The translations under genes and the position numbers were made by a program. The notes under the pieces were generated by a model that was given only the letters and a program-made list of their open reading frames with translations, was not told the DNA's origin and did not search any database. From positions 1-38,355 of IMG/VR virus record IMGVR_UViG_3300030333_006459: a DNA stretch of 38,355 nucleotides; one strand, 5' to 3'. Each line of letters begins with the position of its first letter. The first letter of the stretch is position 1. The DNA comes from a virus. Positions 1,155-37,030 of the stretch are shown piece by piece.

Positions 1155-2522
1155 TCACCTTCCTGATTTCTTTTTAAATTTATTATATTTCTCTTTGAGT
1201 GCCCTCATTTGGTCCTCGTCGCTCTTTTGAGCATGCTCCATCATTGCTGCATCTCTCTTCATTACTTCGATCTTCACATTGGATGTATCCATAAATAGTG
1301 GGAAGATTATTCCGTCCTCTCCATTTCTATTTTTTGCTACAAACATCCTACCTGTATTGTTCTGTTTGTCTGTGTGAGTTCTAGAAATAGTGCAAATAAA
1401 ATCAGCCACGAAGCACTTGTTAAATGCCTCTGAGATTGCCTCCATTGTAATTACTTCTGCGTTCACGCCTGACCTGTTCGTTTGAGATGCTGTCCATATC
1501 GGACACTCGAACTCTTGGGCAATTCCTCGGAGTTCCTCATATATAGATTCGAGTTCTATTCTTTTCTCTTTGTGCATTGTTTTCGGACGTAACAAATCTG
1601 CGTAGTCTACGATAATCATATCGATTTTTTGTCCACGATTTTTTAATTTTTCTAGGTGTGCCCTTATGTTATTTGTCGATGCTGACTTTGTTGGATATTC
1701 TTTTACGGTTAGAGATCCATCAATATCTTTTACCTTTTCATAAATTTCTTCTTTGAGTTCCATTAAGTCTGCGAGTGGGAACTTGGTAATGCAACTATCG
1801 TATCTACTAGCCACCACCGTGTCTTGCAATTCAAGAGTATAGTGGATGACAGACTTGCCCATCTTAACTGCTTCTGCTCCGAGATGAACAAGAGCCATAG
1901 ACTTACCAGCACCAGTCGGTGCGATGACGACCCCTAGCTCTCCTTTGCCCAAGCCACCTTTACAGATCTTATCTATCTCATCCCAGCCTGTAGTAACTGC
2001 ATTTCTTGCAACAAACTCAAATCTCTTTTCAAAGTCGAGAATATAATCATGACCAAAGTTGTTTTCAGCACCCAAGGTCAGCGACTTAGTAACCATCTCT
2101 TGTATCTCATCAAATGAAGACTTCTCCAAAAGAGAGAGGGACTTCATCACAGCTTCTTTGTATTTCTGCTTTCTGCAAAAATCAAGGGCTGTATCTTTGA
2201 TAAAGCCAGCATCTTCCATAGATGTATCTGAGGAAGTTAAGATGCGTTTGTAATAATCTCTGACTTGCTTTTGCATAAGAGGACTTTCGCTTGCAAGGTC
2301 CGTCCTAAGCATTGTGGTCATCGAGCTTATGTTTGGGTGGCTATCATATTTTTCCTTATATAGCAAAATCTTCTTTACGAAGAGTTGCAGATAACTAAGT
2401 TCAAAAAAGTTTATATCAAGGACTTCTGATATCTGGCTACAAAAAGCCCTGTCCTCGAACATTAACTTTGATAACTTCTCTTGAAAGTCTTTGCCGTGGC
2501 GTGAGAAGCTCGCTTTTTCCAT
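1155..2522 (-). CDS. Replicative DNA helicase, DnaB/T4 gp41 family
   Basis: This is the ring helicase that unwinds the replication fork 5'-3'. The 455-aa length is close to T4 gp41 (about 475). Residues 1-150 form a helical N-terminal domain. A RecA-like motor follows, with Walker A APTGAGKS at 201-208, the catalytic glutamate region HYTLEL near 227-232, Walker B MIIVDYADLL at about 302-311, and an SQTNRS motif near 345. The start ATG overlaps the stop of the upstream exonuclease gene by one base (TAATG), implying translational coupling. The C-terminus is basic (KKFKKKSGR). No primase is visible in the window, so the gp61 partner must lie elsewhere or be replaced. Confidence 0.9.
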   Translation of the reverse strand: MEKASFSRHGKDFQEKLSKLMFEDRAFCSQISEVLDINFFELSYLQLFVKKILLYKEKYDSHPNISSMTTMLRTDLASESPLMQKQVRDYYKRILTSSDTSMEDAGFIKDTALDFCRKQKYKEAVMKSLSLLEKSSFDEIQEMVTKSLTLGAENNFGHDYILDFEKRFEFVARNAVTTGWDEIDKICKGGLGKGELGVVIAPTGAGKSMALVHLGAEAVKMGKSVIHYTLELQDTVVASRYDSCITKFPLADLMELKEEIYEKVKDIDGSLTVKEYPTKSASTNNIRAHLEKLKNRGQKIDMIIVDYADLLRPKTMHKEKRIELESIYEELRGIAQEFECPIWTASQTNRSGVNAEVITMEAISEAFNKCFVADFICTISRTHTDKQNNTGRMFVAKNRNGEDGIIFPLFMDTSNVKIEVMKRDAAMMEHAQKSDEDQMRALKEKYNKFKKKSGR

Positions 2523-3493
2523 TATTGTCCTTTTGATTCAATAATAATTTTCTTAAAATGCACGAATAAATCGTTCCAATCATAAACCCCAAAGCCATCT
2601 TCGAGCATCATCGTTTTGGCTTTTGTCTTATTAAAGGTAGGTTCAAATTCAAGAACACAATCTTTAATACTTTGTCTCGCTTGTGGAGACATCGATGGTG
2701 TATATAATTGCATCAATTTGTAGTTTTGTTCAATCAAATCTTGTTTCTCGACAACATTTGAATAGGCTTTTAGCTTGCTATCGACTGACGCAGCGTATTC
2801 AACAACATCTGCAATAGTGTAATCTTTATCCTCGCTCATAAATGGAAATCTCTTGGATACAGTCGGAAGTCCAACACCACCTACACCGGGAAGATTATCG
2901 GACTTGTCGCCAGCCATAGCACGAGCCAAAGCAAAATTGTTTGGATGGATTGAGTATTTTTCCACTATCCTCTTCTCGTTCAAGATTTCTTTCTGAACTG
3001 GTCTGTATAATACAGTATTGCCTGAGCAAAGCTGGATAAAGTCTTTGTCGGAACTGACGATTACCTTTTGCCAGTCTTCGATGTTTTTCATATTAGCGAC
3101 AAAGGCAATAATATCGTCAGCCTCCAAGTGATCAACCATAAGCTGGCAGACTGGTAGCTGGTTTAGATACTCGAACAATCTGGTCTGTTGCCATATCTTA
3201 TTTTCAAGTTCTTCATTTTCGGTGAGATTGCGAATACCACGATTTAGTCGAATTGGCTTTCGACCTTCCTTGTATCCACCAAACGTAGATTTGCGTCGAC
3301 TTGAACCTCCGTCCCAAGCAACAACAATATGATCTGGTTTAATTTCTCTTGTTAGTTTTTGAAGTATTTTTAAAAAGCCTTTCACACCGCCGATAGGTTG
3401 TCCGTTGGCTGAAAGGCTAGGGTCTACAATATAAGCTCTGAAATACATATTTAGAGCGTCAACAATCATGATGCGTTTATTATTCATAGACAC
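2522..3493 (-). CDS. FEN-type 5'-3' exonuclease / RNase H (T4 Rnh-like)
   Basis: This is a structure-specific 5' nuclease expected to remove RNA primers and flaps from lagging strands. PIN/FEN features appear in order: an N-terminal metal-binding Asp in IMIVDALNMYFRAY, an arch-like basic stretch after AWDGGSS, the acidic cluster EADDIIAF, SSDKDFIQL, and the helix-hairpin-helix region DKSDNLPGVGGVG. At 323 aa it is close to T4 Rnh (305). Two starts are possible: GTG at 3493 or ATG at 3487 (two codons in). Neither has a strong ribosome site, and GAAGAG near the end of the upstream gene is the only candidate. The gene overlaps the downstream helicase start by one base. In A-family polymerases of bacteria this activity is fused to the polymerase; here it is a separate gene, as in T4 and T7. 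Confidence 0.88.
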   Translation of the reverse strand: MSMNNKRIMIVDALNMYFRAYIVDPSLSANGQPIGGVKGFLKILQKLTREIKPDHIVVAWDGGSSRRKSTFGGYKEGRKPIRLNRGIRNLTENEELENKIWQQTRLFEYLNQLPVCQLMVDHLEADDIIAFVANMKNIEDWQKVIVSSDKDFIQLCSGNTVLYRPVQKEILNEKRIVEKYSIHPNNFALARAMAGDKSDNLPGVGGVGLPTVSKRFPFMSEDKDYTIADVVEYAASVDSKLKAYSNVVEKQDLIEQNYKLMQLYTPSMSPQARQSIKDCVLEFEPTFNKTKAKTMMLEDGFGVYDWNDLFVHFKKIIIESKGQ

Positions 3494-3764: not shown

Positions 3765-4007
3765 TTAATGATGGTGGGGATGGTGCTTTCTGTAACGTTT
3801 TTTGTAGCGTTTCTTATAGTATTTTTTCTTATAAATCTTGTGTTTATGATAATGCTTATGATAATAAGTTTTATAAACAACTTTATACGGGGGTGGAACT
3901 ACGACGTAGTATTCCTCATATTCATAGTAGGGGTAGTGAACGGTATGCCCAAAAGCACAACCAGAGAACAAAACAAAAAACAAACTAAGTGCTACAATCT
4001 TTTTCAT
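3765..4007 (-). CDS. Small His/Lys/Tyr-rich predicted lipoprotein
   Basis: This 80-aa protein starts MKKIVALSLFFVLFSGC: a basic n-region, a hydrophobic h-region and a lipobox-like LFSG-C with C17 as the likely lipidated residue. The mature part contains a Tyr/Pro stretch (HYPYYEYEEYYVVVPPP). The second half is almost entirely His, Lys, Tyr and Arg and ends HHPHHH. The frame extends 11 codons upstream to a GTG, but the ATG at 4007 has a GGAGG seven bases before it and begins the signal peptide, so I choose it. It lies between uvsX and the replication genes. Envelope-anchored phage lipoproteins often act in superinfection exclusion or lysis; whether this one does is inference. The His-rich tail could bind metal, and the basic tail could bind LPS, peptidoglycan or nucleic acid. 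Confidence 0.75.
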   Translation of the reverse strand: MKKIVALSLFFVLFSGCAFGHTVHYPYYEYEEYYVVVPPPYKVVYKTYYHKHYHKHKIYKKKYYKKRYKKRYRKHHPHHH

Positions 4008-4014
4008 AACGAAA

Positions 4015-4019
4015 CCTCC
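4015..4019 (-). promoter_or_regulatory. Shine-Dalgarno fixing the lipoprotein start
   Basis: GGAGG on the minus strand lies seven bases upstream of the ATG at 4007. It supports starting the lipoprotein at its signal peptide rather than at the upstream GTG at 4040. Confidence 0.75.
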
Positions 4020-4049
4020 ATTACTTATTAGACGTAGCACTTAGTTTAT

Positions 4050-6059: not shown

Positions 6060-6883
6060 ATGTTTTTTTGTATTTTTGTTGTTCTTGATAGAAAATAGAC
6101 GTGATTGTCTTCGTAGTTTGTTGAATAAATACCAAAGGTTGCATCGCACTCTTGGTCTATATTTTCACGGATGTTTTTAAGTAGATTTTGATCAGATTTT
6201 AGGTGATTTTCTGGGATTGCAAAGTAGTATTTTTTCTCTCTTATTTCTTCCATATTGTAGAAAGAATACTCTTCGCTGTTTTTGGGATTGACCGTGCCGA
6301 TGGTCATAATTCTGGATGGGTCGTGTAAGTCGCTATAAGTATTGAAAACTGGGTCGGTGTTATCAAAAACGTTTAGCATATGTATTGTGGATACGAGAGT
6401 TTCGTTGATTCTTTCATAATACCCAAAAACTGGTAATCCGCCGAGAACTGTCTCAATAGTTTTGTTTTCAACGATAATCAAAGATTTAAATACACCAGAA
6501 CGTGCATACTCCTGAAAAACGTTAAAAACGGCATTTTCATTGAGAAGTTCAGTGCCGGAAAGCTCGCTCACATCTGGCTTGATGTAGAGGACATTTATTT
6601 CTGCCTTATCCCTAGCTTGCTGCAAAACACGAAGTGATGCAGAGGAGATTTTAGAGCCCCCACAAGTAATAAAAAGAGCTTCTCCGGATAAATGCTTAAA
6701 AAAGTATTCTAAATCAGGATTATAGGCATCATATAGCTCAGGATCTTCATATTTGGGATAAACATAGTAATTCATCTCATCACTGTGGCGATGGTCAATC
6801 TTATAAACATCGTATTGTGGATATTTCTCAAATCCACGAGCGATGTTGCAGCCTGCTTTTCCAAGTCCAATTATTTTATCCAT
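6056..6883 (-). CDS. Divergent tubulin/FtsZ-superfamily-like protein
   Basis: This 275-aa protein shows the order of FtsZ landmarks in degenerate form. The N-terminus MDKIIGLGKAGCNIARGF matches the FtsZ T1 nucleotide loop (IGVGGGGxNA). ALFITCGGSKISSASLRVL (69-87) sits where FtsZ has the GGGTGTG signature loop and its following helix. INVLYIKPDVSELSG (96-110) matches the VVTKPF strand, and SLIIVENKTIETVLG (134-148) matches the LIVIPN strand. VFNTYSDLHD (179-188) matches the T7 synergy-loop region. The GTP signature and the T7 acidic residue are both altered, so GTP hydrolysis is doubtful. It overlaps the polymerase end by 13 bases and precedes gp32, placing it in the replication operon. It could be a filament for DNA positioning or a factor that disturbs host FtsZ. 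The superfamily call is by eye and needs a profile search. Confidence 0.6.
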   Translation of the reverse strand: MDKIIGLGKAGCNIARGFEKYPQYDVYKIDHRHSDEMNYYVYPKYEDPELYDAYNPDLEYFFKHLSGEALFITCGGSKISSASLRVLQQARDKAEINVLYIKPDVSELSGTELLNENAVFNVFQEYARSGVFKSLIIVENKTIETVLGGLPVFGYYERINETLVSTIHMLNVFDNTDPVFNTYSDLHDPSRIMTIGTVNPKNSEEYSFYNMEEIREKKYYFAIPENHLKSDQNLLKNIRENIDQECDATFGIYSTNYEDNHVYFLSRTTKIQKNI

Positions 6884-8064
6884 AGGTCTTTCAAATCTCC
6901 AAAGTTCTTTCCAGCTTTTGCACTTGTCTTAAATACTCCGAAATCATTTTTTGCAAAAGTATCATATATGTCCTGCACCATATGCTGATCTTCTTCGCTA
7001 AAATCTAAAACAATTGAATCGTGCATGGTAAAGGCAATGGTAGATTTTCTACCTTCAAGCATTTTATATATTTTAAGCGCTTGCCTCAATATAATATCAT
7101 TGGTGGTGCTTTGTAAAATATAGTTAAGGGCGTGAAACTCGTCAGCTTCTATTTCTCTACCATATGGATTTTTAACCTTTTTTCCGTCCCAATATTTCTC
7201 CTTAACCTTCCCCCTATCATAAGCACGATTAGAAAGAAAATCATTAGAATTTGGGTTATAAAGCCAAGCAAAAACTCTTTTCTTAGCCTCTTCCCTATCA
7301 ACAGCCCCACGATAAACAACATTTGCGTTCCAATCGTGTATATCTTCCTCTGGCTGGTCTTTACCAGATAGGGCGAGGAGCGTTCTAAGTTCTGCTGCGT
7401 TATAATCCAATTCAACGAACCAATCATTATTTGGTCTTAGTATGGAGCGATAGTTCTTATCAAGATTAAGAAGTGGGAAGCAGCCTTTCTCAACTGTAAG
7501 TCTACCTGTGATAGAGCCGAATAGATTATATTTTACAAAAGGTTGAAGTCTTTTAAGTTTCTTCAAGAAATCTCTAATCCGAAGATTGTATGCTTTTTGT
7601 CTCAGTGGTGCCGTATCGATATTCAGCTTTTGATATTTGATATCAGTTAGCATCTTGGTCGCTTCAACAAGAAAATCGTAATCAGCAGGTTTTGGGTGAT
7701 TCTCCAAGACATACTCTGTTATCTCATTTTTAGCTTTGCAGTATTCAATCAGGAATTTCTCTGGTACCAATTCGTAGAAGCAGTTGTCATTCAAATCAAC
7801 CTTTGCCTCAACAAAGGAGCGATGATACGCTCTGAGTTTGCCAAAAACCTCAGACCACTTGTTTTTCATGTGCTCAGGGCAAGCCTCATCAAGCGATTTT
7901 CCACCGAAGTATATGTGTGCATATTCTATGTCAGGTAGGTCTTTAAGAAAAGCGGAGTATTTCCAAGTTTTGGTGAGATTTTGTGGTATTTCGTTCCAAA
8001 GAAGTTCACCATCCTTGAAAACAGCGACACACTCATTTTTTTCGTCTAATGTCTGAAATATCAC
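6871..8064 (-). CDS. A-family DNA polymerase, polymerase domain only
   Basis: This is the phage replicative polymerase palm/fingers/thumb. PolA landmarks are in order: SITGRLT (184-190), motif A ELDYNAAELR (218-227, catalytic D220), the O-helix R257-x3-K261-x3-F265-x3-Y269 inside VDREEAKKRVFAWLYN, NYILQSTTNDIILRQA (314-329), and motif C FTMHDSIVL (345-353, D349). Two signature positions differ from E. coli Pol I: Asn after the O-helix Tyr instead of Gly, and HDS instead of HDE. At 397 aa it is too short for a 3'-5' exonuclease domain, and the N-terminal 170 residues show no DxE exonuclease motif. Proofreading must come from another gene, as in split-polymerase phages. Translation starts at a GTG overlapping the preceding stop (GTGA), with GAAGG just upstream. 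Confidence 0.88.
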   Translation of the reverse strand: MIFQTLDEKNECVAVFKDGELLWNEIPQNLTKTWKYSAFLKDLPDIEYAHIYFGGKSLDEACPEHMKNKWSEVFGKLRAYHRSFVEAKVDLNDNCFYELVPEKFLIEYCKAKNEITEYVLENHPKPADYDFLVEATKMLTDIKYQKLNIDTAPLRQKAYNLRIRDFLKKLKRLQPFVKYNLFGSITGRLTVEKGCFPLLNLDKNYRSILRPNNDWFVELDYNAAELRTLLALSGKDQPEEDIHDWNANVVYRGAVDREEAKKRVFAWLYNPNSNDFLSNRAYDRGKVKEKYWDGKKVKNPYGREIEADEFHALNYILQSTTNDIILRQALKIYKMLEGRKSTIAFTMHDSIVLDFSEEDQHMVQDIYDTFAKNDFGVFKTSAKAGKNFGDLKDLWIK

Positions 8065-25251: not shown

Positions 25252-27066
25252 TTAACCGTTGAGGTCAGCACAGATAACAAGACCATACATATCAGGTCTA
25301 ACCATCTTCTTAGCGTAACGGGTCATGACACCCTTACGAGGAACAAAGTCCTCTACACCGAAGATAGTTGGAGTTACCTGAAGTGGGACGTATGGAGCGT
25401 AAACATATCCGCTCTCAAGGAACGATCCACCCTTACGTCCAGCAAGAATAACATTACGTGGGAAGTATGGGTCAACATAAACATCCCATTTCTTGCTCAA
25501 TGATCCAACATTAACGGCACCAACTGTTCCCTTATCGGAATCAGCAGTGACATTAGCACGGAACCCAGCAGTGAATTCAAGGATGTTAGCAACCTCTGGA
25601 GAACAAACAACAAAGTTTGCACCACCACGAAGTGTCTTTCTGTGGATTTGAGCAGAAACATCATTGATTGTCTCAATTAAAGTCTCATACCATTCAGAAA
25701 CAGTTCCGGTGAAATCAGCACCGAGGAGTGATTCGTTGGAAAGTCCGGATCCGATTGGAAGACCAGTTCTGCGATCCAAGAATTTACCCGGACGACGTGA
25801 CCAGTAGAGAGTGTCTGCTGTTGCACCTTTAATAAGATCTTCAAGAATTTCTCTATCAATCTCAAGAGCGATTTGCTCAGAAAGAATGCTTGTAAGCTCA
25901 ACTTCTGCATCAAGGTTGTGATAAGCATTGAGATCTTGTCCCAATTCTGGTGTCCACTTAGCCTTGAGCTTCTTGGTGTTCGCAGTTACGCTGATCGAGT
26001 CAACCTTGATGTCGATTTCTGGAATAACTTCTTCCAATTCGAGATCAAGACCACCAGCGGCACCGACAACTGCACCAAGCGCTTCATTAGCAGAGGCAGC
26101 AGGTGTTCCGCTGAAATCATCTGCAAGTGCGTACTGTGCGTGAAGTGTAAGATATTCACCATCAATAGCAGTCACGGCGTCAGCAGCATCAACCCCATCG
26201 GTTGCAAAGTAAACATTAATGTTATCCCTAGCAGAACCGGAAAAAGAAGTCAAACGACGAATTTGCCTGAAAGAACCAGAAGGTGTGACTCCGCCATTTA
26301 CGCCATCAAGCGCCTCGGCACCGTTATCTCCACCATAAAGAACAATACTCTGAAGATTGTCTTTGTTAAGATTACTAAAATCACTAGTAGCAATTCTAGC
26401 AACAAAAACGTTTGTAGAGCCAGAAGTGAAATCTGGGTCAAAACGGCAAAGTTTATCAAATTCTGCTTGGGTATCACAACCACCGGGGATCATAACATCT
26501 TCATTGGCTCTAGCTCCACCGAAGGTTCCGGAAGCAACAGATGTAAGAGTAACTGCTGTTAAGGAACTGGTTGGGGAAGCATAACCATTGTTAAGTGCGT
26601 AAGGACCAAGTTCAGCGTTAACACCGGAAAGATCAACACCACCAGTGATTTGCTGTCCTAAACGACCACCACCATAAAGGGAAGTGTCTTCCGATTGTGG
26701 CGTTAAAGCCAACCCGCCTTTAGAGGCGTTGTTGTGTTGGAAGTCAAGGAAGAAAATGAGACCAGATGGAAGGCTCATTGGCTGAACCGACACAAGGTCA
26801 TTTGCAATAAGTCCACCGAATACACGACGAACGATAGGGAATGCAACTGCTGCAAAACCCTCGACATCACCACCAGAAATGCTGGATGCCTCACGGAGAA
26901 GCTCTTTTGCTTGGTTTTCAAGCAAACGTGCCATTCCATTCTTTTGGCTATCGCTACCTAATCCTTCAAGAAGTCCGGTTTTTTCCCACTTATTAAGGAG
27001 GGCTGCACCTTCTTTCTGGAGATCACGGTTAACGATGCCTTCTGTTAATTTATCTAAAACTGACAT
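25252..27066 (-). CDS. gp23: Major capsid protein, T4 gp23-like
   Basis: This is the main shell subunit. The diagnostic stretch AFPIVRRVFGGLIANDL, then VSVQPMSLPSGLIFFLDF, is the conserved gp23 core. The N-terminal segment (ENQAKELLREASSISGG) matches the part of gp23 removed by the gp21 protease. LRE at 57-59 followed by Ala fits the (L/I)xE cleavage rule, giving a predicted mature start at A60 (T4: after E65). The 604-aa length exceeds T4 (521), with extra Gly/Ser-rich sequence at about residues 115-290. The C-terminal FVPRKGVMTRYAKKMVRPD region is conserved. AGGAGAT precedes the ATG, and a strong terminator follows the stop. Confidence 0.96.
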   Translation of the reverse strand: MSVLDKLTEGIVNRDLQKEGAALLNKWEKTGLLEGLGSDSQKNGMARLLENQAKELLREASSISGGDVEGFAAVAFPIVRRVFGGLIANDLVSVQPMSLPSGLIFFLDFQHNNASKGGLALTPQSEDTSLYGGGRLGQQITGGVDLSGVNAELGPYALNNGYASPTSSLTAVTLTSVASGTFGGARANEDVMIPGGCDTQAEFDKLCRFDPDFTSGSTNVFVARIATSDFSNLNKDNLQSIVLYGGDNGAEALDGVNGGVTPSGSFRQIRRLTSFSGSARDNINVYFATDGVDAADAVTAIDGEYLTLHAQYALADDFSGTPAASANEALGAVVGAAGGLDLELEEVIPEIDIKVDSISVTANTKKLKAKWTPELGQDLNAYHNLDAEVELTSILSEQIALEIDREILEDLIKGATADTLYWSRRPGKFLDRRTGLPIGSGLSNESLLGADFTGTVSEWYETLIETINDVSAQIHRKTLRGGANFVVCSPEVANILEFTAGFRANVTADSDKGTVGAVNVGSLSKKWDVYVDPYFPRNVILAGRKGGSFLESGYVYAPYVPLQVTPTIFGVEDFVPRKGVMTRYAKKMVRPDMYGLVICADLNG

Positions 27067-28520: not shown

Positions 28521-31500
28521 TTACTTCTTAAGGTTTGAGATAACTTTCTTCAAGTCTTCGATCTGAACCTGTTGAGCCTTTACAGCCTCAACGAGAACAG
28601 AAGTAAGTCTTGAGTAGTCAACCCCCTGAACGCCGTCTTGGGCAGTGTGAACTGCTTTTGGAACGACTTTCTGAACGTCTTGAGCGATGAAACCGAAGTC
28701 TCTTTCACCAGAATTCTTCCAAGTGAACTCAACACCTTCAAGGGACATAACAGTATCAAGGGCAGTGCTAGCCATGGAGCTAATGTCTTCCTTGAGACTT
28801 TCATCCGAGTAGGTAACAAATGCAGCAGCACGAACCTTGTTGATGTTGTTCGATCCGTCAGCTACATCAAGGGCAAATTCACTATCAGAATCACCACCGA
28901 GGTTCAACATTGTTGCACCAGAGCTATTGCGGAAATTGATAACGTGATTTGCATTGTCATACATAAACCTCTCATTGGCGGCAGCACCGTAAGCGATGAT
29001 AGATGCACCAGATCCGTCTGCACCAAGGTTGAGATTGCTGTCTGCGTTGATAGTACCATCTGCACCGATGGAGGTACCTCCGCCACCGTATCCACCAGCA
29101 AAACCAACTCCATTAGCAGCAAGAGTAATCATCTCATTACCACCACTGTGCTTGATTCCGTCTCCAGCAACTGTAAGATCTCCATGAACTGTAACGTCAC
29201 GGCTAGCAGATTCAAGTGTTAAGTTTGGCGTAGTTCCAACAGCGGAACCGAGACCAATCAACAACTTGTCTGCGGAATCGTCTAGACCCACATAGAAGTC
29301 AGCAGCGTTTCCGTCGAAAACAAGTTTAGTGTCTGCTGCTGCACCAGCACCGATAGTAACAGTGTCATTAAAGAGTGCATCACCAGTTAACGCTAAACCA
29401 TTAGAACCAGAAAGTTTACCAGCAACAGTCAAAGCATCCTGAGCAGTGATTGCGGCTTCAAAAGAAGCAGCACCTTTCGCTTCAAGAGTTCCTTGAAGTT
29501 GTGAGTTTCCAGTCACATGAAGTGTCCCAGAGAGTGCAGAGTTGCCGTTAACAACAGCACTTGTTGCAACCATTGCAGCAAATGTTCCAGCAGCGGCGCT
29601 GTTGGCACCAATCACTGTCCCGTCGATTGCACCACCATCAACATTGATGTTTGTGATTGCTTGGTTATTTGCATCAAGAGCAGAACCAAGTTGATCAATG
29701 TGTCCAACATCAACGTGAGCAGCAGACCATTGAAGTGCAGAACTACCAAGAGCACGAGCACTGTCAGTCGAAGGCACAAGGTCGGAATCAAAACGACCAG
29801 TAGCAGTAATAGTATCACTGGTTGCATCACCAAGGTCAACATTTCCACCTGCAACAAGATCTGTGAATGTACCAGCAGCAGCGGATTCTCCACCAATCAC
29901 TGTTCCATCAATTTCACCAGAACTGATATATGCAGCAGAAGGATCTGCGTCTGTACCAAGTTGGTCGATGTATCCGATTCCATTAACATAAAGATCTTTC
30001 CACTGAAGACTTGCATCACCTAAGTCATGAGTGTTATCAGCTTTAGGATCGATACTGGAAGCGACACGTCCAGAAAAAGTAATGTCATCGCCAGTAGCGT
30101 CACCAAGTGTTACTGCACCGTTGAGGCTTGAAGCACCACCTACAAGCATTGCTCCAGAAACGTGGAAACTTTCATCAGTGTGCCAGCGGTCTTCTTGAGC
30201 GTCCCATCTAAGAGATGCAACAGCAAGTGATCCTGTGGATCCAAGATAAACACCACCACCGTCAAGTGCGCCGAGAGCAGCGGCACCATCGTTTTTGCTA
30301 GTTCCGCTAGCAATAAGAATTACTTTATCTGCAATGTGAAGTTCGGTCTCATGGTTTGTGACTGTGTTAATTGCGCCTTGAACTTGAAGCTCTCCACGAA
30401 CTAAAACGTCACCGAAAGAAGAATCACCAGAAATGTAAATACCGTTTGAACCAGAAAGCTTACCAGCAACAGACAAAGCATCCTGTGCAGTGATAGCAGC
30501 CTCAAAAGAAGCAGCACCCTTTTGCTCAAGAGTTCCTTGGAGTTGAGAGTTTCCAGTAACATGAAGTGTTCCAGATAATGCAGAGTTACCGTTAACAACC
30601 GCACTTGTTGCAACCATTGCAGCAAATGTTCCAGCGGCTGCGCTGTTAGCACCGATCACTGTTCCATCGATTGCGCCACCATCAACATTAATGTTTGTGA
30701 TCGCTTGGTTGTTTGCATCAAGTGCAGAACCAAGTTGGTCAATGTGTCCAACGTCAACATGGGCGGCAGACCATTGAAGTGCCGATGTTCCGAGAGCACG
30801 AGCACTATCAGTCGAAGGCACAAGGTCAGAGTCAAAGCGACCAGTAGCAGTAATAGTATCACTGGTTGCATCACCAAGATCGACGTTTCCGTTTGCAACA
30901 AGAGTTGTGAATGTACCGGCATTGGCAGAGTTTGCTCCAATTGGAGTTCCGTCAATCGCACCACCGTCGATATTAATACCATCAAGAGCAGCACCTTCGA
31001 TGAATTCAGCACGAGTCATCTTGCGAAGAGCACCTGCATCGGCGTCATATACTGCCAAAAGGTCAGCATCTGCTGGTGTGCTTTCGCCAGTTAAGTTGTT
31101 GATATCAAGACTAAGAACACCAGAAGAATCAGAAAGACCGGTAGCTGTTACAGTTCCAGCCATGAAGCCAACAAGATCAGCGATTGATTCTTTTTTAGTT
31201 GCATTGCCGTCATTTGCATCGATGATAGCAATGCTATCATTTGCAACGTCAACAGCGGCTGCATTAACACCATTAAGATCAAGTGTAAAGGTAAGGTCAT
31301 ATTCATCACCATCGATACCGTGGGAAACATCAGTCCAGTTGATATCGACACCACCGTTACCCTCTACAAATTTTAGTTGAGCACCACCAGAAATAGGAAG
31401 CTCTGTTCCATCGCCGTCTTCCAATTTGAAAGAACCACCGAGTGGAATTTCATTACCAGCACCATCTTTCATGAAAAGCTTGGTATTACCCGATTCATCA

Positions 31501-31604
31501 GTAGAAGAGCTAGCATACAATTGGGCTGCGCCTGAAGAGTGCCCCGGTGCGGAACCGGTTACCTGATCAAAGATAAGCCCGAAATTACTCATTTGAGTAG
31601 CCAT
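28521..31604 (-). CDS. Long tail-fibre-like protein with peptidase S74 intramolecular chaperone
   Basis: This 1027-aa protein is a trimeric-fibre candidate, probably exposed and receptor-facing. The body is made of repeated units such as IDGTVIGANSAAAGTF and VDLGDATSDTITATGRF, a beta-rich pattern common in marine phage fibres. The last 100 residues are a peptidase S74 domain: YSDESLKEDIS (near 930) supplies the Ser-Asp...Lys self-cleavage site, and FGFIAQDVQKVVPKAV is the signature second half. A final coiled coil (AVKAQQVQIEDLKKVISNL) aids trimerisation. S74 domains fold the fibre and are usually cut off. Two nearly identical 155-residue segments show an internal duplication. GGAGG precedes the ATG at 31604. 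Its place among head genes rather than with tail genes is unusual and could mean a head fibre. Confidence 0.88.
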   Translation of the reverse strand: MATQMSNFGLIFDQVTGSAPGHSSGAAQLYASSSTDESGNTKLFMKDGAGNEIPLGGSFKLEDGDGTELPISGGAQLKFVEGNGGVDINWTDVSHGIDGDEYDLTFTLDLNGVNAAAVDVANDSIAIIDANDGNATKKESIADLVGFMAGTVTATGLSDSSGVLSLDINNLTGESTPADADLLAVYDADAGALRKMTRAEFIEGAALDGINIDGGAIDGTPIGANSANAGTFTTLVANGNVDLGDATSDTITATGRFDSDLVPSTDSARALGTSALQWSAAHVDVGHIDQLGSALDANNQAITNINVDGGAIDGTVIGANSAAAGTFAAMVATSAVVNGNSALSGTLHVTGNSQLQGTLEQKGAASFEAAITAQDALSVAGKLSGSNGIYISGDSSFGDVLVRGELQVQGAINTVTNHETELHIADKVILIASGTSKNDGAAALGALDGGGVYLGSTGSLAVASLRWDAQEDRWHTDESFHVSGAMLVGGASSLNGAVTLGDATGDDITFSGRVASSIDPKADNTHDLGDASLQWKDLYVNGIGYIDQLGTDADPSAAYISSGEIDGTVIGGESAAAGTFTDLVAGGNVDLGDATSDTITATGRFDSDLVPSTDSARALGSSALQWSAAHVDVGHIDQLGSALDANNQAITNINVDGGAIDGTVIGANSAAAGTFAAMVATSAVVNGNSALSGTLHVTGNSQLQGTLEAKGAASFEAAITAQDALTVAGKLSGSNGLALTGDALFNDTVTIGAGAAADTKLVFDGNAADFYVGLDDSADKLLIGLGSAVGTTPNLTLESASRDVTVHGDLTVAGDGIKHSGGNEMITLAANGVGFAGGYGGGGTSIGADGTINADSNLNLGADGSGASIIAYGAAANERFMYDNANHVINFRNSSGATMLNLGGDSDSEFALDVADGSNNINKVRAAAFVTYSDESLKEDISSMASTALDTVMSLEGVEFTWKNSGERDFGFIAQDVQKVVPKAVHTAQDGVQGVDYSRLTSVLVEAVKAQQVQIEDLKKVISNLKK
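29401..29866 (-). repeat. Intragenic duplication in fibre gene, distal copy
   Basis: The protein segment from VDLGDATSDTITATGRF through QLQGTLE to VAGKLSGSNG is repeated almost exactly 1044 bases (348 codons) away at 30445-30910. The DNA copies differ mainly at third codon positions, so the duplication is not brand new or is kept by protein-level selection. Confidence 0.88.
30445..30910 (-). repeat. Intragenic duplication in fibre gene, proximal copy
   Basis: Partner of the segment at 29401-29866, in the same orientation and frame. Protein differences are few (for example GTSALQ versus GSSALQ, TLEQKG versus TLEAKG). A different block (a region with NTVTNHETELHIADKVI) lies between the two copies. 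Confidence 0.88.
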
Positions 31605-31635
31605 AGTTATTATCCTCCATCATAGACCTATGTAT

Positions 31636-31660
31636 AAAAAAAGACGGTCTAAACCGCCTT
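31636..31660 (-). terminator. Rho-independent terminator upstream of the fibre gene
   Basis: An 8-bp stem with one G-T pair (31641-31648 with 31653-31660) and a TTAG loop is followed on the minus strand by a run of T. It lies about 130 bases after the stop of the 148-aa gene and about 32 bases before the fibre ATG. Confidence 0.85.
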
Positions 31661-31739
31661 TCAGGTCTATGAATTTAAATTTTAAGTTAAAAGTTAGAAT
31701 TACCCCGAAAGGAGTGAACTGCAATCCCTTGCAGTTCGT
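31636..31739 (-). ncRNA. Structured leader or small RNA candidate ending in a terminator
   Basis: Reading the minus strand from 31739, the spacer holds a perfect 9-bp hairpin with a GGGA loop (31737-31716), then a small CTCC-TTTC-GGGG hairpin (31714-31703). An AT-rich stretch follows, then a strong terminator hairpin with a T-tract (31660-31636). A copy of the spacer motif lies just upstream at 31740-31750. A transcript started there would end before the fibre gene, giving an RNA of about 100 bases. It could instead be an attenuator leader for the fibre gene. If the start is about six bases after the motif, the first hairpin would lose a few bases of its stem. Confidence 0.35.
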
Positions 31740-31750
31740 ATATAAATAGT
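31740..31750 (-). promoter_or_regulatory. Spacer motif ACTATTTATAT upstream of structured leader
   Basis: A minus-strand variant of the recurrent motif (two end bases differ), 136 bases before the fibre ATG and directly upstream of the hairpin region. Role inferred. Confidence 0.38.
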
Positions 31751-31788
31751 TCTGATATTGAAGTTTGGAAGGATTTTTTTGAAATATT

Positions 31789-32235
31789 TTAGTCTGGTGT
31801 TCCGCCTCCGGAAACGCCGCCGTTTGCTGCAATAGCGGTGACGGTCCAATTAAATTGTCCCATTGCGATACAACGATAGACAGTGCTCGCTGATAATGCT
31901 AGTTCTTTTTGCTGGGCAGACCCATTATCAACAGCCACTCCGTTAATTGAAGTAGCCTGACCAGAAATGACTGGTGCTCGGAGTTCCATAACAGCACCGA
32001 CAGAAATTAAAATCTCGTTCCCACCCACATATTCCGGAAGTGTAATGATGAAATCGTCTGCATCTTGTCCTTCCCCCGGTGTTCCGGCAGCGGCAGAAAC
32101 GATGCTGGCGTTAGCTGGTATCTGACCTGTGCCAGTTCCATCAGCGGTTGACGTTACAACAACAGGGTCCGACTGAACACCTTTTGTCGCTTTGATGAAC
32201 GGTGGATTACTATTGCTTGCACTAAATCTACCCAT
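31789..32235 (-). CDS. Putative virion surface protein, 148 aa
   Basis: The protein is rich in Gly, Ala, Ser and Val and lacks charged helices. Beta-strand-like stretches include DPVVVTSTADGTGTGQIP, DDFIITLPEYVGGNEILI and YRCIAMGQFNWTVTAI, and the end is Gly-rich. This composition is typical of small virion surface, decoration or fibre-base proteins. It follows a similar 168-aa gene by 12 bases (AGGAGAT upstream) and lies before the fibre gene. I do not recognise a named family; a role as capsid decoration or fibre anchor is inference. Confidence 0.75.
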   Translation of the reverse strand: MGRFSASNSNPPFIKATKGVQSDPVVVTSTADGTGTGQIPANASIVSAAAGTPGEGQDADDFIITLPEYVGGNEILISVGAVMELRAPVISGQATSINGVAVDNGSAQQKELALSASTVYRCIAMGQFNWTVTAIAANGGVSGGGTPD

Positions 32236-32247
32236 TTTTTAAATCTC

Positions 32248-32754
32248 CTATACAGTTTTAGTTCTAAAGTCAGCCGCTGTATCAACATCAGTCAATCCAG
32301 AACCAGAAAGCGCATACATATCATTTGGATGAATGCTGGTTAGTTCAGCTAGAACTTGAAAAGCACCGCCGTTGCCGCCAGACTTATTAGCAATGTATAT
32401 TTCTTTGCATTTAGTATCAAATGTAATTGAATCTTTTTTATTATCTAAGCTGATATAATGTTGACCCGCCAAAACTGCTTCTGTATGACTTAAATCAAGA
32501 GCACCTCCAGCGCCAGTGTTTGCTGTGCCATCAGTGAAGTATACATAAAGTTCCACATCGGCTCTGTTAATAACTGTAACAGACTTAGCTACTTGTGGAA
32601 AAACCACTTGAACTTGCTTATTGTTATCTATAGATGTCGATCCTGTAATAAAAGGGTGCCCTGAAACTTGATAAGCGGCAGCATTACCCAACCCTTGTCT
32701 ATAGCGGTAAGCTGTATCTTTTGGGTGTGTAATTACCCCTGCATTAGTTGACAT
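32248..32754 (-). CDS. Putative virion surface protein, 168 aa
   Basis: This protein is beta-rich with no enzymatic motif: VQVVFPQVAKSVTVINRADV, LYVYFTDGTANTG, AGQHYISLDNKKDSITF and KCKEIYIANKSGGNGGAFQV. The pattern of short strands with Asp/Gly/Asn turns suggests a compact beta-sandwich. It is flanked by bS21 upstream and the 148-aa gene downstream, with AGGAGA before its ATG at 32754. Head decoration or fibre-attachment function is plausible from position only. Confidence 0.75.
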   Translation of the reverse strand: MSTNAGVITHPKDTAYRYRQGLGNAAAYQVSGHPFITGSTSIDNNKQVQVVFPQVAKSVTVINRADVELYVYFTDGTANTGAGGALDLSHTEAVLAGQHYISLDNKKDSITFDTKCKEIYIANKSGGNGGAFQVLAELTSIHPNDMYALSGSGLTDVDTAADFRTKTV

Positions 32755-32765
32755 GATTAATTCTC

Positions 32766-32984
32766 CTAGTCTTTAAATCTTGCTTCATATTCTCTTTGGG
32801 CTTTTCTAGCAAGTCGTTTTGCCCTTTGTTTTTTAAGTCTTTTAATTTTAGAGGGCTTTTCATGAAACCTTCTATTTCTAACCTCTTCGAGAATACCAGA
32901 CCTTTTAACTTTCTTGTTAAATCTCTTTATCATTCTTTCAATCGATTCATTTGGTCTCGGCTTAACCTCTACATTAACTGGCAT
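32766..32984 (-). CDS. rpsU: Ribosomal protein bS21 homologue encoded by the phage
   Basis: This 72-aa basic protein matches bS21. MPVNVEVKPRPNESIERMIK gives the N-terminal strand and first helix, RFNKKVKRSGILEEVRNRRF gives the conserved middle, then HEKPSKIKRLKKQRAKR gives the basic C-terminal helix. bS21 sits on the 30S subunit near the anti-Shine-Dalgarno end of 16S rRNA and affects initiation. Phage copies have been reported, and bS21 is among the most frequent viral ribosomal proteins. GAGG precedes its ATG by about six bases, and it follows the 174-aa gene by eight bases, so it is expressed with prohead genes. A role in steering host ribosomes toward phage late messages is inference. 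Confidence 0.92.
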   Translation of the reverse strand: MPVNVEVKPRPNESIERMIKRFNKKVKRSGILEEVRNRRFHEKPSKIKRLKKQRAKRLARKAQREYEARFKD

Positions 32985-32992
32985 CTAATCCT

Positions 32993-33490
32993 CTACTTTT
33001 TTATCAACTGTTCCCAAAGCTTTTTGTTTCCTAAAAGGGAATCAATTGCAACCCCAGCATCATCTGGATCTACGCCAGATAACGGTCCTTGCGATGATGG
33101 ACCTTCATTCGGAACACCTGCTCTGCTTAAAGGCGTTGTTCCCTCGAAAAAATCAACCCCTTCAAGATTATATAGGTCCTTATAAGAGCTTTTACCAATA
33201 GATTCCATCATTCTATTACGTAATTCTTGCATTTTTTGCACATTTTTTTGTGCTCTTTGCTGATGCTCTTCTGTTTGTTCGTGAAAGTCTTCAAGATTTT
33301 GGTCGGCTATGCTCGAACCTAAGTTAGCTCTTAATTGGTGAACTTGACTCATTGCTTCTGTCATTGCTTCTGCGCTAACTTGATGTGTCTCATTGATCGC
33401 AGAAGCTATAGCTTCCTTTAGAAAACCATCTTCAATAAGCACTTCTTTAATACTTTCTTTAATTAAGCTTTTAAATTTTTCAACTTTCAT
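32993..33490 (-). CDS. Head-module protein of unknown function, 165 aa
   Basis: The N-terminus MKVEKFKSLIKESIKEVLIE is an amphipathic helix of a type often seen at the start of phage internal head proteins. The middle is helical and Gln/Glu-rich (coiled coil, EQTEEHQQRAQKNVQKM), and the end is Pro/Gly/Asp-rich with SLLGNKKLWEQLIKK. The frame opens nine codons earlier at 33517, overlapping the protease gene, but the ATG at 33490 has a GAGAGG ribosome site and I use it. It follows the gp21-like protease and may be a core component like T4 gp67/gp68, but no direct similarity is visible. Confidence 0.72.
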   Translation of the reverse strand: MKVEKFKSLIKESIKEVLIEDGFLKEAIASAINETHQVSAEAMTEAMSQVHQLRANLGSSIADQNLEDFHEQTEEHQQRAQKNVQKMQELRNRMMESIGKSSYKDLYNLEGVDFFEGTTPLSRAGVPNEGPSSQGPLSGVDPDDAGVAIDSLLGNKKLWEQLIKK

Positions 33491-33500
33491 ATTTACCTCT

Positions 33501-34103
33501 CTAATAGAGTATATCATTAAGAAGTCTGTTTAGTTTATCTTCTTTTGTAAAATTATTTAAATCGCTTTCTTTTGCTTCTCGCAACATAAAAGCTCCGGGT
33601 GTTGATGGTTCCGAAACAAAATCAAAACAAATCAACTGAAAGTCATCATTAACTTCTGTAACGCCATCTGTTTCTGTAACTGTCCCTAGACCTCTAGAGG
33701 AGATACCGACTTTTACACCACCTTCAACAAGAGCACGGAGAGTGTTTCCAGCATCAGTAGGCAGGACCTTTACCTTGCCCATAACATCATTGCCATCCCA
33801 CCAGACATCAGTAACCATATGGGAAGCGTTCTTAAGGTTAACAACAGAATCTTCTGGGTGATCTAATTCACCTAGTGCTCTGCGGTCCCTAACAATATCG
33901 ATATAATTTCTAATTTCTCTTTCTAAAATTCTTCTACTGTATCTTCTGCCGTTTCCGTTCTTAACCTCGGCAGTTTGCATGCGACCTGTTAGGTACATAG
34001 CGCCATTTGCTACTTCAGCTTTTTCTGCTTCTGTTAAAAGATCTTGGCATAAGCCATCTTTACAAAGCTCATAGAATTCTCTTAAAAGAACTTTCTTAGT
34101 CAT
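33501..34103 (-). CDS. gp21: Prohead core protease, T4 gp21-like (peptidase S77)
   Basis: This serine protease cleaves scaffold and capsid proteins during head maturation. The 200-aa form from the ATG at 34103 (T4 gp21 is 212 aa) contains GELDHPEDS with catalytic H82, and VKVGISSRGLG with the catalytic Ser at 135-136. MYLTGRMQTAEVKNGNGRRY matches the conserved N-terminal half. The frame extends nine codons upstream to a TTG, but the ATG has AAGGAG and overlaps the 961-aa gene stop by eight bases, so it is the better start. Its likely substrates in the window are the gp23- and gp22-like proteins and possibly the 961-aa protein. Confidence 0.93.
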   Translation of the reverse strand: MTKKVLLREFYELCKDGLCQDLLTEAEKAEVANGAMYLTGRMQTAEVKNGNGRRYSRRILEREIRNYIDIVRDRRALGELDHPEDSVVNLKNASHMVTDVWWDGNDVMGKVKVLPTDAGNTLRALVEGGVKVGISSRGLGTVTETDGVTEVNDDFQLICFDFVSEPSTPGAFMLREAKESDLNNFTKEDKLNRLLNDILY

Positions 34104-36981
34104 TTTTACTCTCCTTGATAATACCAGCAATCTTTGCCCAGCGATCTAAAGTCTCTTGAAGATTATCTTGCTCCTCAAGTGCCCTGCCACCTCTTGTTTT
34201 TCTTCTACGTTTCATAGTGCCAGCATCCGTTGGTGGTCTAACTTTCTTTTTAGATCCACCCTTTTGATTCTTGATGCCAGACTTAACACCAAGAAGATCA
34301 TCGAGACTAGTGCCTCCAGCAAGTGCAGACTTTCCAGATGGAGTTCCAGAAGTCTTGCCTACCTGATCTTTACCTTTTGGCTCATCTGCTTGCGGCTTTT
34401 CATCCTTTGGTTTTTCATCCGACATACCCCTTCTTCTCTTTAGTTCGGGCACCATTACATTTTCCCAGTCTTTTACTTTTTGATCCCTGTCTTTTGAGGT
34501 GACCAATTGATCCGTATAGGATTTCAAAAACTGTTTAAACACTTTATCAGATCGTATAACATCTTTTATATTTAATCTAGCTTCGTAGCCCTCTGGGACT
34601 TTTGCAGCGGGGGAAACGCTTTTATCCCCTTTCGGTGTTTTTTTACCTTTTGGATTATAAATGTAGTTCAGGGACGCTGCCGTAACGTTCTCACCTATGT
34701 TCCTGATTTTGATTGTTCTCTTAGTGGCTCCTTTCTCGTCAAGAGTTTGTTCCTCCATTCTCATCCCAGTTTCCATATTAAAACTTATAAAAGCTGGTCC
34801 TTGGATATACCTTCCGCCGTTAGCCTCACATTGCTTTTCATAGTCAATAACATCGCCAACTGTCTTTATTTCGCCACCACGCCAGCCATCAATTTGTTTC
34901 ATACCCTCGACAGCGACAACCATAGCTTGTTTTTCCACGCCTTTTGAGGTGGTATATGTAAAGATATCCCCAACTTTAAGATCGAGATCCCTTACAGGCT
35001 GAACCAATTGTTCGCAAGCGCTACCTTCTTCATATACTCCTGCTCCCGGTCCTTCTTCTCCGCCTTCTTCTGGTTCTGGATCAAGCACTGGGTCTTCTAC
35101 TGCAAATTTTTTAATATAATCTCTTGCAGTTTGTAGATCTGCTACCCTAGAAGACTTCTTTCCCTTCATTCTTAATAATTTAATAGCCAGACCACCACTC
35201 GCAACAGTGATACCCATTGGTGCTAAAATAGCCCCAAGACCGGGAACCAAAGCGGCGGCTTGTGTGCCAGCAGTTACGGCTCCTTGTTTAATCGCTGTCT
35301 TTGCAGCAGATGTAGCTATTTTACCAGCTAAGTTCATTACTGCACCCCCCGGCTCCATACCGAGAAGTGTAAATCCGGCATGTTTTACAGCACCAGATCC
35401 AAGGGCTGCTGTGGCTGCTGCCTCTTTGATCTTCTTCATAAATGGCTTCATCAAGAAATTATTAAACTCTATCCTATACCGCCTCTTCAAAGTCTGTCCG
35501 GGTCCAAATGCGCCCTTCTTCATTTTTTCGAATTCTTCTGGGTTGTTTGCTTTAAAATTATTAAAATAATCATTAAAAGTTCCTTTTTGTTTCACGAACT
35601 CTTCTTTAGCCGCCGCCCTTTCTGCCGCACTGAATTCTTTTGCGCCAAGGTAAGTAGAACTTCCTCTAGCCTGATCTTTCATTGCCTTCGCCATGCTAGC
35701 GGGGATTTCATCTGGTGAATCAGCGGCAGTAGCTGCTGCTTGCTTTGTAACATCTTTGGCTGCACCTGCAACATCATCTGCATCTGGTAAGGACGTTACA
35801 GCATCTGATGCGGCAGAACTTGCTGCTTGTTTTGCAGCAGCTTTTGCAGCGGCTGCTGCTTTTTCAGCGGCTTCAAATTTTGCCACCAACGCATCGGATG
35901 CCCCTGATTCTTTTGCAAATTCAACAAACTCTGGCTTTATTGCCGTGGCATTTACAACATCCCCTACGCTTCCACCTTCTTTAGCATAGTTATACATCAA
36001 GGTGCTTAACTCGCCACTTACTTCTCTGTGTTCTTCTCGCCCTAAAGTCCCCATAACGTCTTTTATAACTTCTTCTGGGCTGTTTCCTGTTTTTTGAGCA
36101 ATAATATCAACACTTTTTGCAAAATCCATTGGTCTTACAGTCTCGCCAGACAAGGCAGACGCTGAATCACTAAATGTTTTTAACATACCTTTGCCACGGC
36201 TATCAACCACAGCATTAAAATATTCCTTTGTAGCGTCGGGGACTTGAGTTAATTTACCCGGATCTGTAACAAAGTCCTTTGTATACATAAGCGGAGCAGT
36301 AGCAGCAACAACTTGACCTGCTGTATAAGCAGCACCACCTAGCAAACTAAGTGCTGCTGGTAAGAAATTACTTTCAAGACCAGCCATAGCCGTTGATTTC
36401 TTGTCGTAGAATTGCTCCTCTGGTTCTTCATCCTGCTCGGCTAGCATTTCAGCAAGAGTATACCCCTCCTGCTCTAAACTCTCTTTGAAGTGTTTATAGA
36501 CATCGGACAACTTATTATCCATCACATTAACAAGATATTGGTGGAGAACCTCAACAATTGCATTCGCTGCTTCTGGAGACATTGCCCCTTCTGGTTGCTC
36601 CTCTTTTCCGGGCTGATATTTTTCTACGCTTGCTTTCAGGGAATCATAATAAACTAAAATAGAAGCCAAAGCGCTTTGGAAAGCAAACTGGTCTTTCATA
36701 TTTGGAAATTCTTTTGTGTCTTCGTCAGCTTTGATGGCATCAATCAAATCCTTAACAGCTTTGTTGGAGTGCTTATCTAAAGCTGTTTCTAATTTATCTT
36801 GCGCCGCTTTTCTAGCCTTATCTTTACCAAGCAGTTTCCCACTAGCTTCAAGGCTACCAAGTTTCGCAATTCCATATTTAATCGAGTCCCAAACGCCTTC
36901 ATCAATCTGTCGACGGACTTCATCCGTCAATTGTTGTCTCACTAAATTTTCTAATTGACCTTTTGTTAAGCGATTTTTCAT
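34096..36981 (-). CDS. Very large Ala-rich head/core protein of unknown function, 961 aa
   Basis: This is an unusual giant member of the head module. The N-terminus (LTKGQLENLVRQQLTDEVRR) is a charged helix and the next 200 residues are helical. A Lys/Ala-rich coiled region (FEAAEKAAAAAKAAAKQAAS) lies near 365-390. Residues about 540-600 form a long hydrophobic Gly/Ala segment including ALVPGLGAILAPMGITVA, which could cross or insert into a membrane. A compact beta-type domain follows (VGDIFTYTTSKGVEKQAMVV), then a low-complexity basic linker. The end, LDRWAKIAGIIKESKND, resembles the DRMKRLAGLN end of the gp22-like scaffold. It is directly upstream of the protease. Internal/ejected head protein or core protein is inferred from these features. 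Confidence 0.8.
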   Translation of the reverse strand: MKNRLTKGQLENLVRQQLTDEVRRQIDEGVWDSIKYGIAKLGSLEASGKLLGKDKARKAAQDKLETALDKHSNKAVKDLIDAIKADEDTKEFPNMKDQFAFQSALASILVYYDSLKASVEKYQPGKEEQPEGAMSPEAANAIVEVLHQYLVNVMDNKLSDVYKHFKESLEQEGYTLAEMLAEQDEEPEEQFYDKKSTAMAGLESNFLPAALSLLGGAAYTAGQVVAATAPLMYTKDFVTDPGKLTQVPDATKEYFNAVVDSRGKGMLKTFSDSASALSGETVRPMDFAKSVDIIAQKTGNSPEEVIKDVMGTLGREEHREVSGELSTLMYNYAKEGGSVGDVVNATAIKPEFVEFAKESGASDALVAKFEAAEKAAAAAKAAAKQAASSAASDAVTSLPDADDVAGAAKDVTKQAAATAADSPDEIPASMAKAMKDQARGSSTYLGAKEFSAAERAAAKEEFVKQKGTFNDYFNNFKANNPEEFEKMKKGAFGPGQTLKRRYRIEFNNFLMKPFMKKIKEAAATAALGSGAVKHAGFTLLGMEPGGAVMNLAGKIATSAAKTAIKQGAVTAGTQAAALVPGLGAILAPMGITVASGGLAIKLLRMKGKKSSRVADLQTARDYIKKFAVEDPVLDPEPEEGGEEGPGAGVYEEGSACEQLVQPVRDLDLKVGDIFTYTTSKGVEKQAMVVAVEGMKQIDGWRGGEIKTVGDVIDYEKQCEANGGRYIQGPAFISFNMETGMRMEEQTLDEKGATKRTIKIRNIGENVTAASLNYIYNPKGKKTPKGDKSVSPAAKVPEGYEARLNIKDVIRSDKVFKQFLKSYTDQLVTSKDRDQKVKDWENVMVPELKRRRGMSDEKPKDEKPQADEPKGKDQVGKTSGTPSGKSALAGGTSLDDLLGVKSGIKNQKGGSKKKVRPPTDAGTMKRRRKTRGGRALEEQDNLQETLDRWAKIAGIIKESKND

Positions 36982-37001: not shown

Positions 37002-37030
37002 CAAAAAACTAGTGCGGCCGTTAGCCGCAC
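37002..37030 (-). terminator. Rho-independent terminator before the 961-aa gene
   Basis: A perfect 7-bp stem (37012-37018 with 37024-37030) with a five-base loop is followed on the minus strand by TAGTTTTTTG. It lies between the small membrane-protein gene set and the 961-aa gene, so the latter likely has its own promoter or depends on read-through. Confidence 0.82.

Follow-up and report, generated by a model that had tools for sequence, protein, structure and literature searches.

A ribosomal protein bS21 gene in the head module of a lineage of T4-like phages

The window analysed here is the whole of a linear IMG/VR virus record of 38,355 bases. Almost all genes that can be recognised in it are encoded on the minus strand, and among these is a gene for ribosomal protein bS21 (Ribosomal_S21) at 32766-32984. 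An earlier note on this DNA had reported a complete bS21 there and named no strand. The gene is indeed complete; it encodes 72 amino acids (pI 11.4, net charge +17) on the minus strand, and the plus strand of the same interval is not the bS21 gene. PF01165 recognises the gene with 58.7 bits (E 1.9e-17) in a profile search of the genome and the protein with 58.9 bits (E 3.9e-16; profile positions 1-52 of 55) in a protein scan, the curated cut-off being 27. PHROG 21469, "ribosomal protein S21", matches with an E value of 4.7e-12, and every significant match by sequence in the PDB is a bS21 or an organellar bS21 chain.

Aligned with bS21 of E. coli, F. johnsoniae and others, the protein retains the core of the family, i.e., the basic helix, G-x-x-x-E-hydrophobic, R-x-R and K-P-S; R38, K43 and P44 are almost invariant. 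The conserved middle quoted in the earlier note, KKVKRSGILEEVRNRR, is found exactly at residues 24-39. The N- and C-terminal parts are unlike bacterial bS21. The AlphaFold model shows two or three helices (15-29, 31-39, 44-71) with a mean pLDDT of 83, and bS21 or bS21m chains account for 12 of its 13 Foldseek matches, which are all weak (best E 0.09). Comparison with a near relative, contig L002, yields a dN of 0.035 and a dS of 0.52 for bS21 (dN/dS ~0.07); the prohead protease has 0.032 and 0.88, respectively (dN/dS 0.04), and the dN values of h174, h168, h961 and the fibre gene (0.23-0.61) are far above both. As judged from these substitutions, bS21 is under strong purifying selection. A chance open reading frame is excluded by the PF01165 score, by the dN/dS against the close relative and by the conserved position in at least ~130 other contigs.

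The gene belongs to a block of six co-directional genes with gaps of -8 to 12 bp, in the order h961 - prohead protease - h174 - bS21 - h168 - h148. The first, h961 (34096-36981, minus), evolves fast and is 41% identical to its counterpart in L002. The prohead core protease (33501-34103, minus) is gp21-like (PF03420, Peptidase_S77, E 2e-36; PHROG 207); the ATG at 34103 is the start with the better Shine-Dalgarno sequence (SD). Directly upstream of bS21 stands h174 (32993-33490, minus), the reading frame of which opens at 33517; its start was taken at 33490, where the SD is good. Directly downstream, after 11 bp, follows h168 (32248-32754, minus), which is conserved in relatives, and after a further gap of 12 bp the last gene, h148 (31789-32235, minus). 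PHROG and Pfam gave no match to h961 and no significant match to h174, h168 or h148. Terminator-like hairpins flank the block on the minus strand: one upstream at 37012-37030, with an 8-bp stem and a T-run, the other downstream at 31636-31658, before the fibre gene (GGCGGTTTAGACCGTC followed by T7). The latter was missed by the terminator scanner; it is visible in the fold and conserved in L002. From the tight gaps and the flanking hairpins we infer a single transcription unit from h961 to h148. The fibre gene would be a separate unit. The T4-type late promoter TATAAATA has two matches in the window versus 2.4 expected, none of them on the coding strand, and an Rfam search revealed no RNA family.

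The block is followed by a gene for a fibre-like protein with an S74 chaperone (28521-31604, minus; PF13884; PHROG tail fibre), by a scaffold-like protein and by the gp23-like major capsid protein (MCP; 25252-27066, minus; PHROG 138, E 7.7e-70), which marks the head module. The earlier note had placed bS21 between prohead and virion-surface genes. Upstream this is correct, as the protease and h174 are found there. Downstream it is less so: h168 and h148 come first, and the first recognisable virion-surface gene, the S74-chaperone fibre, is only the third. That bS21 does not reside in a host-like operon, in turn, is right when compared to E. coli, whose rpsU stands between tsaD and dnaG.

The non-coding gap before the fibre gene (31605-31788, minus) harbours the downstream hairpin, nested between CATAGACCT and AGGTCTATG. 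It is almost wholly identical in L002, though the fibre gene is only ~66% identical there. The gap is possibly a regulatory element or a recombination point. An apparent third copy of it in contig L427 had to be rejected, the contig being unrelated. The fibre gene itself contains an internal duplication of 300 nt (29379-29678 and 30423-30722; 87% identical).

Two scans of IMG/VR, one for the protease and one for bS21, each considered for its best 80 matches, yielded at least 160 loci. Some contigs are near-copies or present twice (e.g., L002 = L088), and for these reasons the following counts do not represent independent events. At least ~130 viral contigs have bS21 on the same strand as the prohead protease, usually 0.25-3.1 kb downstream of it. 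Among the matches listed, loci found through the protease and followed by 2 kb or more of sequence show such a bS21, 0.25-3.1 kb away, in 50 of 52 cases; in the remaining two, PF01165 gives weak matches below the threshold ~0.5 kb downstream. Conversely, the protease precedes bS21 on the same strand in all 60 listed loci that were anchored on bS21 and have enough flank, and no relative among the protease- or bS21-anchored loci listed has the two genes on opposite strands. Three contigs of 191-204 kb contain a single bS21 copy each. The distances among the proteases and those among the bS21s are correlated (n = 90; Mantel r 0.48, against at most 0.09 in the permutations). By gene order and sequence, a large lineage of T4-like phages has inherited this arrangement. 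A search of GenBank with an 8-kb head/tail stretch of the window gave no match, i.e., near-identical phages were not found there.

Assembly contamination had been considered in the earlier note as a possible refutation. It can be rejected, as can a chance, decaying passenger gene, since nothing speaks for either, the gene order recurs in at least ~130 viral contigs and in one cultured isolate, the gene is under purifying selection, and its product forms a group of its own in phylogenetic trees.

Two observations concern bS21 genes in other surroundings. In L005, L006 and L007, which represent another phage group, the genes around bS21 are unrelated and may belong to the tail or baseplate; no prohead protease adjoins it. 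An uncultured huge phage of 484 kb (LR756508, a record without annotation; L394:9762-10001) encodes a bS21 homologue of 79 amino acids on the same strand as, and just upstream of, a scaffold-like gene and the MCP.

The first tree comprised 127 rows and 80 columns: 76 distinct phage bS21s, that of the cultured Microcystis phage Mel-JY01, and 50 other rows. The 76 and Mel-JY01 are split from the others with a support of 97/96, and the bS21 of Pelagibacter phage HTVC008M joins an alphaproteobacterial one (96/91). A second tree included phage bS21s of the Bacteroidota type. These, L400 and L404 among them, group with Bacteroidota (100/99), which the window bS21 does not; the outlying L005 and L006, with their tail-gene context, leave the lineage group, and the backbone lacks resolution. 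The trees are built from few columns and an uneven bacterial sampling, in which SAR11 and cyanobacteria are absent. The phylogeny proposed in the earlier note thus separates the lineage from the sampled bacterial bS21s. The safe reading of these alignments is that the lineage bS21 was not recently transferred from any sampled host. The HTVC008M and Bacteroidota-phage proteins group with the bS21s of their hosts, so that these two and the lineage bS21 probably are separate acquisitions. If so, bS21 came to the neighbourhood of the prohead protease at least twice. Lentisphaeria, the main matches of a bS21 scan (~45%), were dismissed as host: the pattern used in the scan is degenerate and biased towards that motif, and in the tree the lineage falls inside no sampled bacterial group.

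The upstream neighbour h174 deserves attention of its own. Its predicted structure consists mostly of helices, but confidence is low (pLDDT 62) and the fold not usable; the family shares the C-terminal consensus FEGT.P...GV.P.D.GVDIS. In 90% of the 131 loci listed, less than 100 bp separate the end of an h174 homologue from the bS21 frame. There are 47 loci in which bS21 and the protease are over 900 bp apart; h174 stays with bS21 in 36 of them, and in 11 another ORF-sized stretch lies between h174 and bS21. A scan anchored on h174 found bS21 downstream in all 66 testable loci among the matches listed, immediately adjacent in 59, and thus no h174 without bS21 among these 66. h174 was not detected in the Flavobacterium phage vB_FspM_immuto, which also lacks bS21, nor in HTVC008M, Mel-JY01 or Bacteroidota-type phages. 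A different conserved neighbour, bS21_CN, has been described, which is also absent from phages without bS21 (PMC9723584). Tentatively, h174 and bS21 might be a dedicated cassette, in which h174, as an obligate partner, would load the phage protein onto ribosomes, strip the host copy from them or take bS21 along into the capsid. If that were true, no phage factor for bS21 exchange would have been named before h174. In any case it is a concrete protein for follow-up, and the pair is what we consider most worth pursuing.

Phage bS21 genes are not new. bS21 is the dominant viral ribosomal protein, making up 88% of those detected (PMC6375957), and S21 is core to pelagimyophages, where it is found outside any specific gene cluster (PMC7029224). 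In 310 of 900 published bS21 phages a prohead protease is encoded within ten genes of bS21 (PMC9723584). Also the idea that bS21 exchange favours phage mRNA late in infection is a published hypothesis (PMC6375957, PMC9723584). Thus, both the observation and the idea of the earlier note are established in kind. New here are the near-universal same-strand layout in the lineage, its separation from two other bS21 types, a negative SD test and the pair with h174.

The closest parallel in culture is Mel-JY01 (PP395634). As in the window, a protease, one ORF of 154 amino acids, RpsU/bS21 and then the MCP are encoded on one strand, and its bS21 falls with those of the lineage, albeit on a long branch. 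The layout is almost the same, but the ORF before bS21 is no detectable homologue of h174, and the two bS21s are only ~48% identical over 44 residues. The freshwater Bacteroidetes phages of Chen et al. 2022 (PMC9723584) likewise encode bS21 only a few genes away from TerL, portal, protease and MCP; in the window this region is matched by the protease two genes upstream and the MCP downstream of bS21. For them, too, a conserved hypothetical neighbour, bS21_CN, and a late-stage hypothesis have been put forward; in the window the conserved neighbour is h174. Their bS21 gene, however, runs against the structural genes, whereas all these genes are on the minus strand in the window, and their protein is of the Bacteroidetes type, in which residue 54 is aromatic; the window protein has Arg57 there. 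IMG/VR contigs of this layout (L400, L403, L404) lack h174; in L400 and L404 bS21 and the nearby protease are on opposite strands, in agreement with PMC9723584. HTVC008M (Mizuno et al. 2019, PMC6375957) is a T4-like myovirus with bS21, too. There, in contrast to the head-module position in the window, bS21 has cobS on one side and, on the other, a gene 90% of the way to the sliding clamp; ~18 kb separate it from the protease. Its product groups with alphaproteobacterial bS21, which that of the window does not. Finally, the cultured phage closest by prohead protease (48%), and one of the closest by MCP, is vB_FspM_immuto; its head module is similar, yet its whole 160-kb genome contains no bS21.

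In this lineage bS21 is a near-universal and strongly selected part of the head module, and it is not of the Bacteroidota type. With a probability of about 0.55, we consider it a functional phage bS21 that is made late and displaces the host bS21 on the 30S subunit, so that initiation on phage mRNA is kept up or favoured. Because of its presumed co-transcription with the prohead protease, bS21 should appear late. It would then take the place of the host protein, which is loosely bound to the platform of the 30S subunit next to the anti-Shine-Dalgarno (anti-SD), and the altered 30S would keep or favour initiation on phage mRNA during the synthesis of virion proteins. h174 may aid this exchange or may be co-produced for another reason. 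Late expression, as claimed in the earlier note, is here deduced from gene order; it has been shown for other phages, in which bS21 is expressed along with structural genes (PMC9723584). bS21 homologues are also known to alter gene expression in a bacterium (PMC9578407). The bS21 of HTVC008M is incorporated into E. coli ribosomes, which then are ~95% inactive in a GFP assay, GFP synthesis being reduced to ~5% (PMC6375957). In view of this inactivity, bS21 replacement might shut translation down instead of redirecting it.

The earlier note had gone further and proposed that phage bS21 biases ribosomes towards strong AGGAG sites of late messages. bS21 is indeed located near the anti-SD (PMC9723584), and late genes do have strong SDs, with AGGAG before MCP, scaffold, h148 and h168. 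AGGAG, however, also precedes the early UvsX. With genes classified as early or late by function, not by expression, the median SD duplex energies in the window are -6.95 kcal/mol for 8 early and -7.3 kcal/mol for 21 late genes (p = 0.26); for orthologues in two relatives of ~200 kb they are -6.3 (13 early) and -6.8 kcal/mol (33 late; p = 0.70). The comparison suggested by the earlier note therefore yields no difference, early SDs being equally strong. SDs are used across the phage genes as a whole, far stronger than at non-start ATGs (-2.7; p 5e-15), and host genes may use SDs too. The proposal thus is very unlikely to hold. The SD of the bS21 gene itself is ordinary (-5.8 kcal/mol). For the favoured displacement of host bS21 it follows that any mRNA feature selected would be something other than SD strength.

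A Bacteroidia-type mechanism is also at odds with the data. In Bacteroidia the anti-SD is sequestered by a tyrosine of bS21, Tyr54 in F. johnsoniae (PMC9976891, PMC9723584). Arg57 at the corresponding position of the window protein rules against such sequestration, and, together with the use of SDs throughout the phage genes, makes the mechanism unlikely. In relatives the position is mostly Arg or Lys; 7 have Y, H or F, and in 31 the anchor motif is absent.

In a simpler scheme, bS21 might become limiting late in infection, and the phage copy would just top up the 30S subunits without any selection of mRNA. The loose association and ready exchange of bS21 (PMC9578407) would fit, SD strength gives no hint of mRNA selection, and strong purifying selection suits a plain ribosomal role. 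The lineage bS21, however, has diverged more than a plain copy needs (below 60% identity to any record; own group in the tree), and we regard the scheme as possible but doubtful.

Still less probable is a role in the virion, with bS21, perhaps together with h174, as a prohead core or internal protein that is packaged and injected, and either acts early in the next infection or binds DNA in the head. Encapsidation has been proposed also in PMC9723584, and the fixed position beside the prohead protease as well as the very basic nature of the protein are in line with it. Against it speak the retained bS21 core signature and the distance of ~18 kb between bS21 and the head genes in HTVC008M. To our knowledge, bS21 has no capsid-targeting leader like that of the T4 internal proteins, which also counts against this role.

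In the window, T4-like gp32, UvsX, gp21 and gp23 occur alongside a family A DNA polymerase, which is only 397 amino acids long (6871-8064) and has its 5'-3' exonuclease encoded by a separate gene (2522-3493). A ribonucleotide reductase gene at 3-1148 is cut by the contig end; its product has an insertion domain of the B12-dependent kind (class II). The stretch 3765-4040 encodes a small protein of 91 amino acids that is predicted to be secreted; it has no family match and ends in a tail rich in His, Tyr and Lys.
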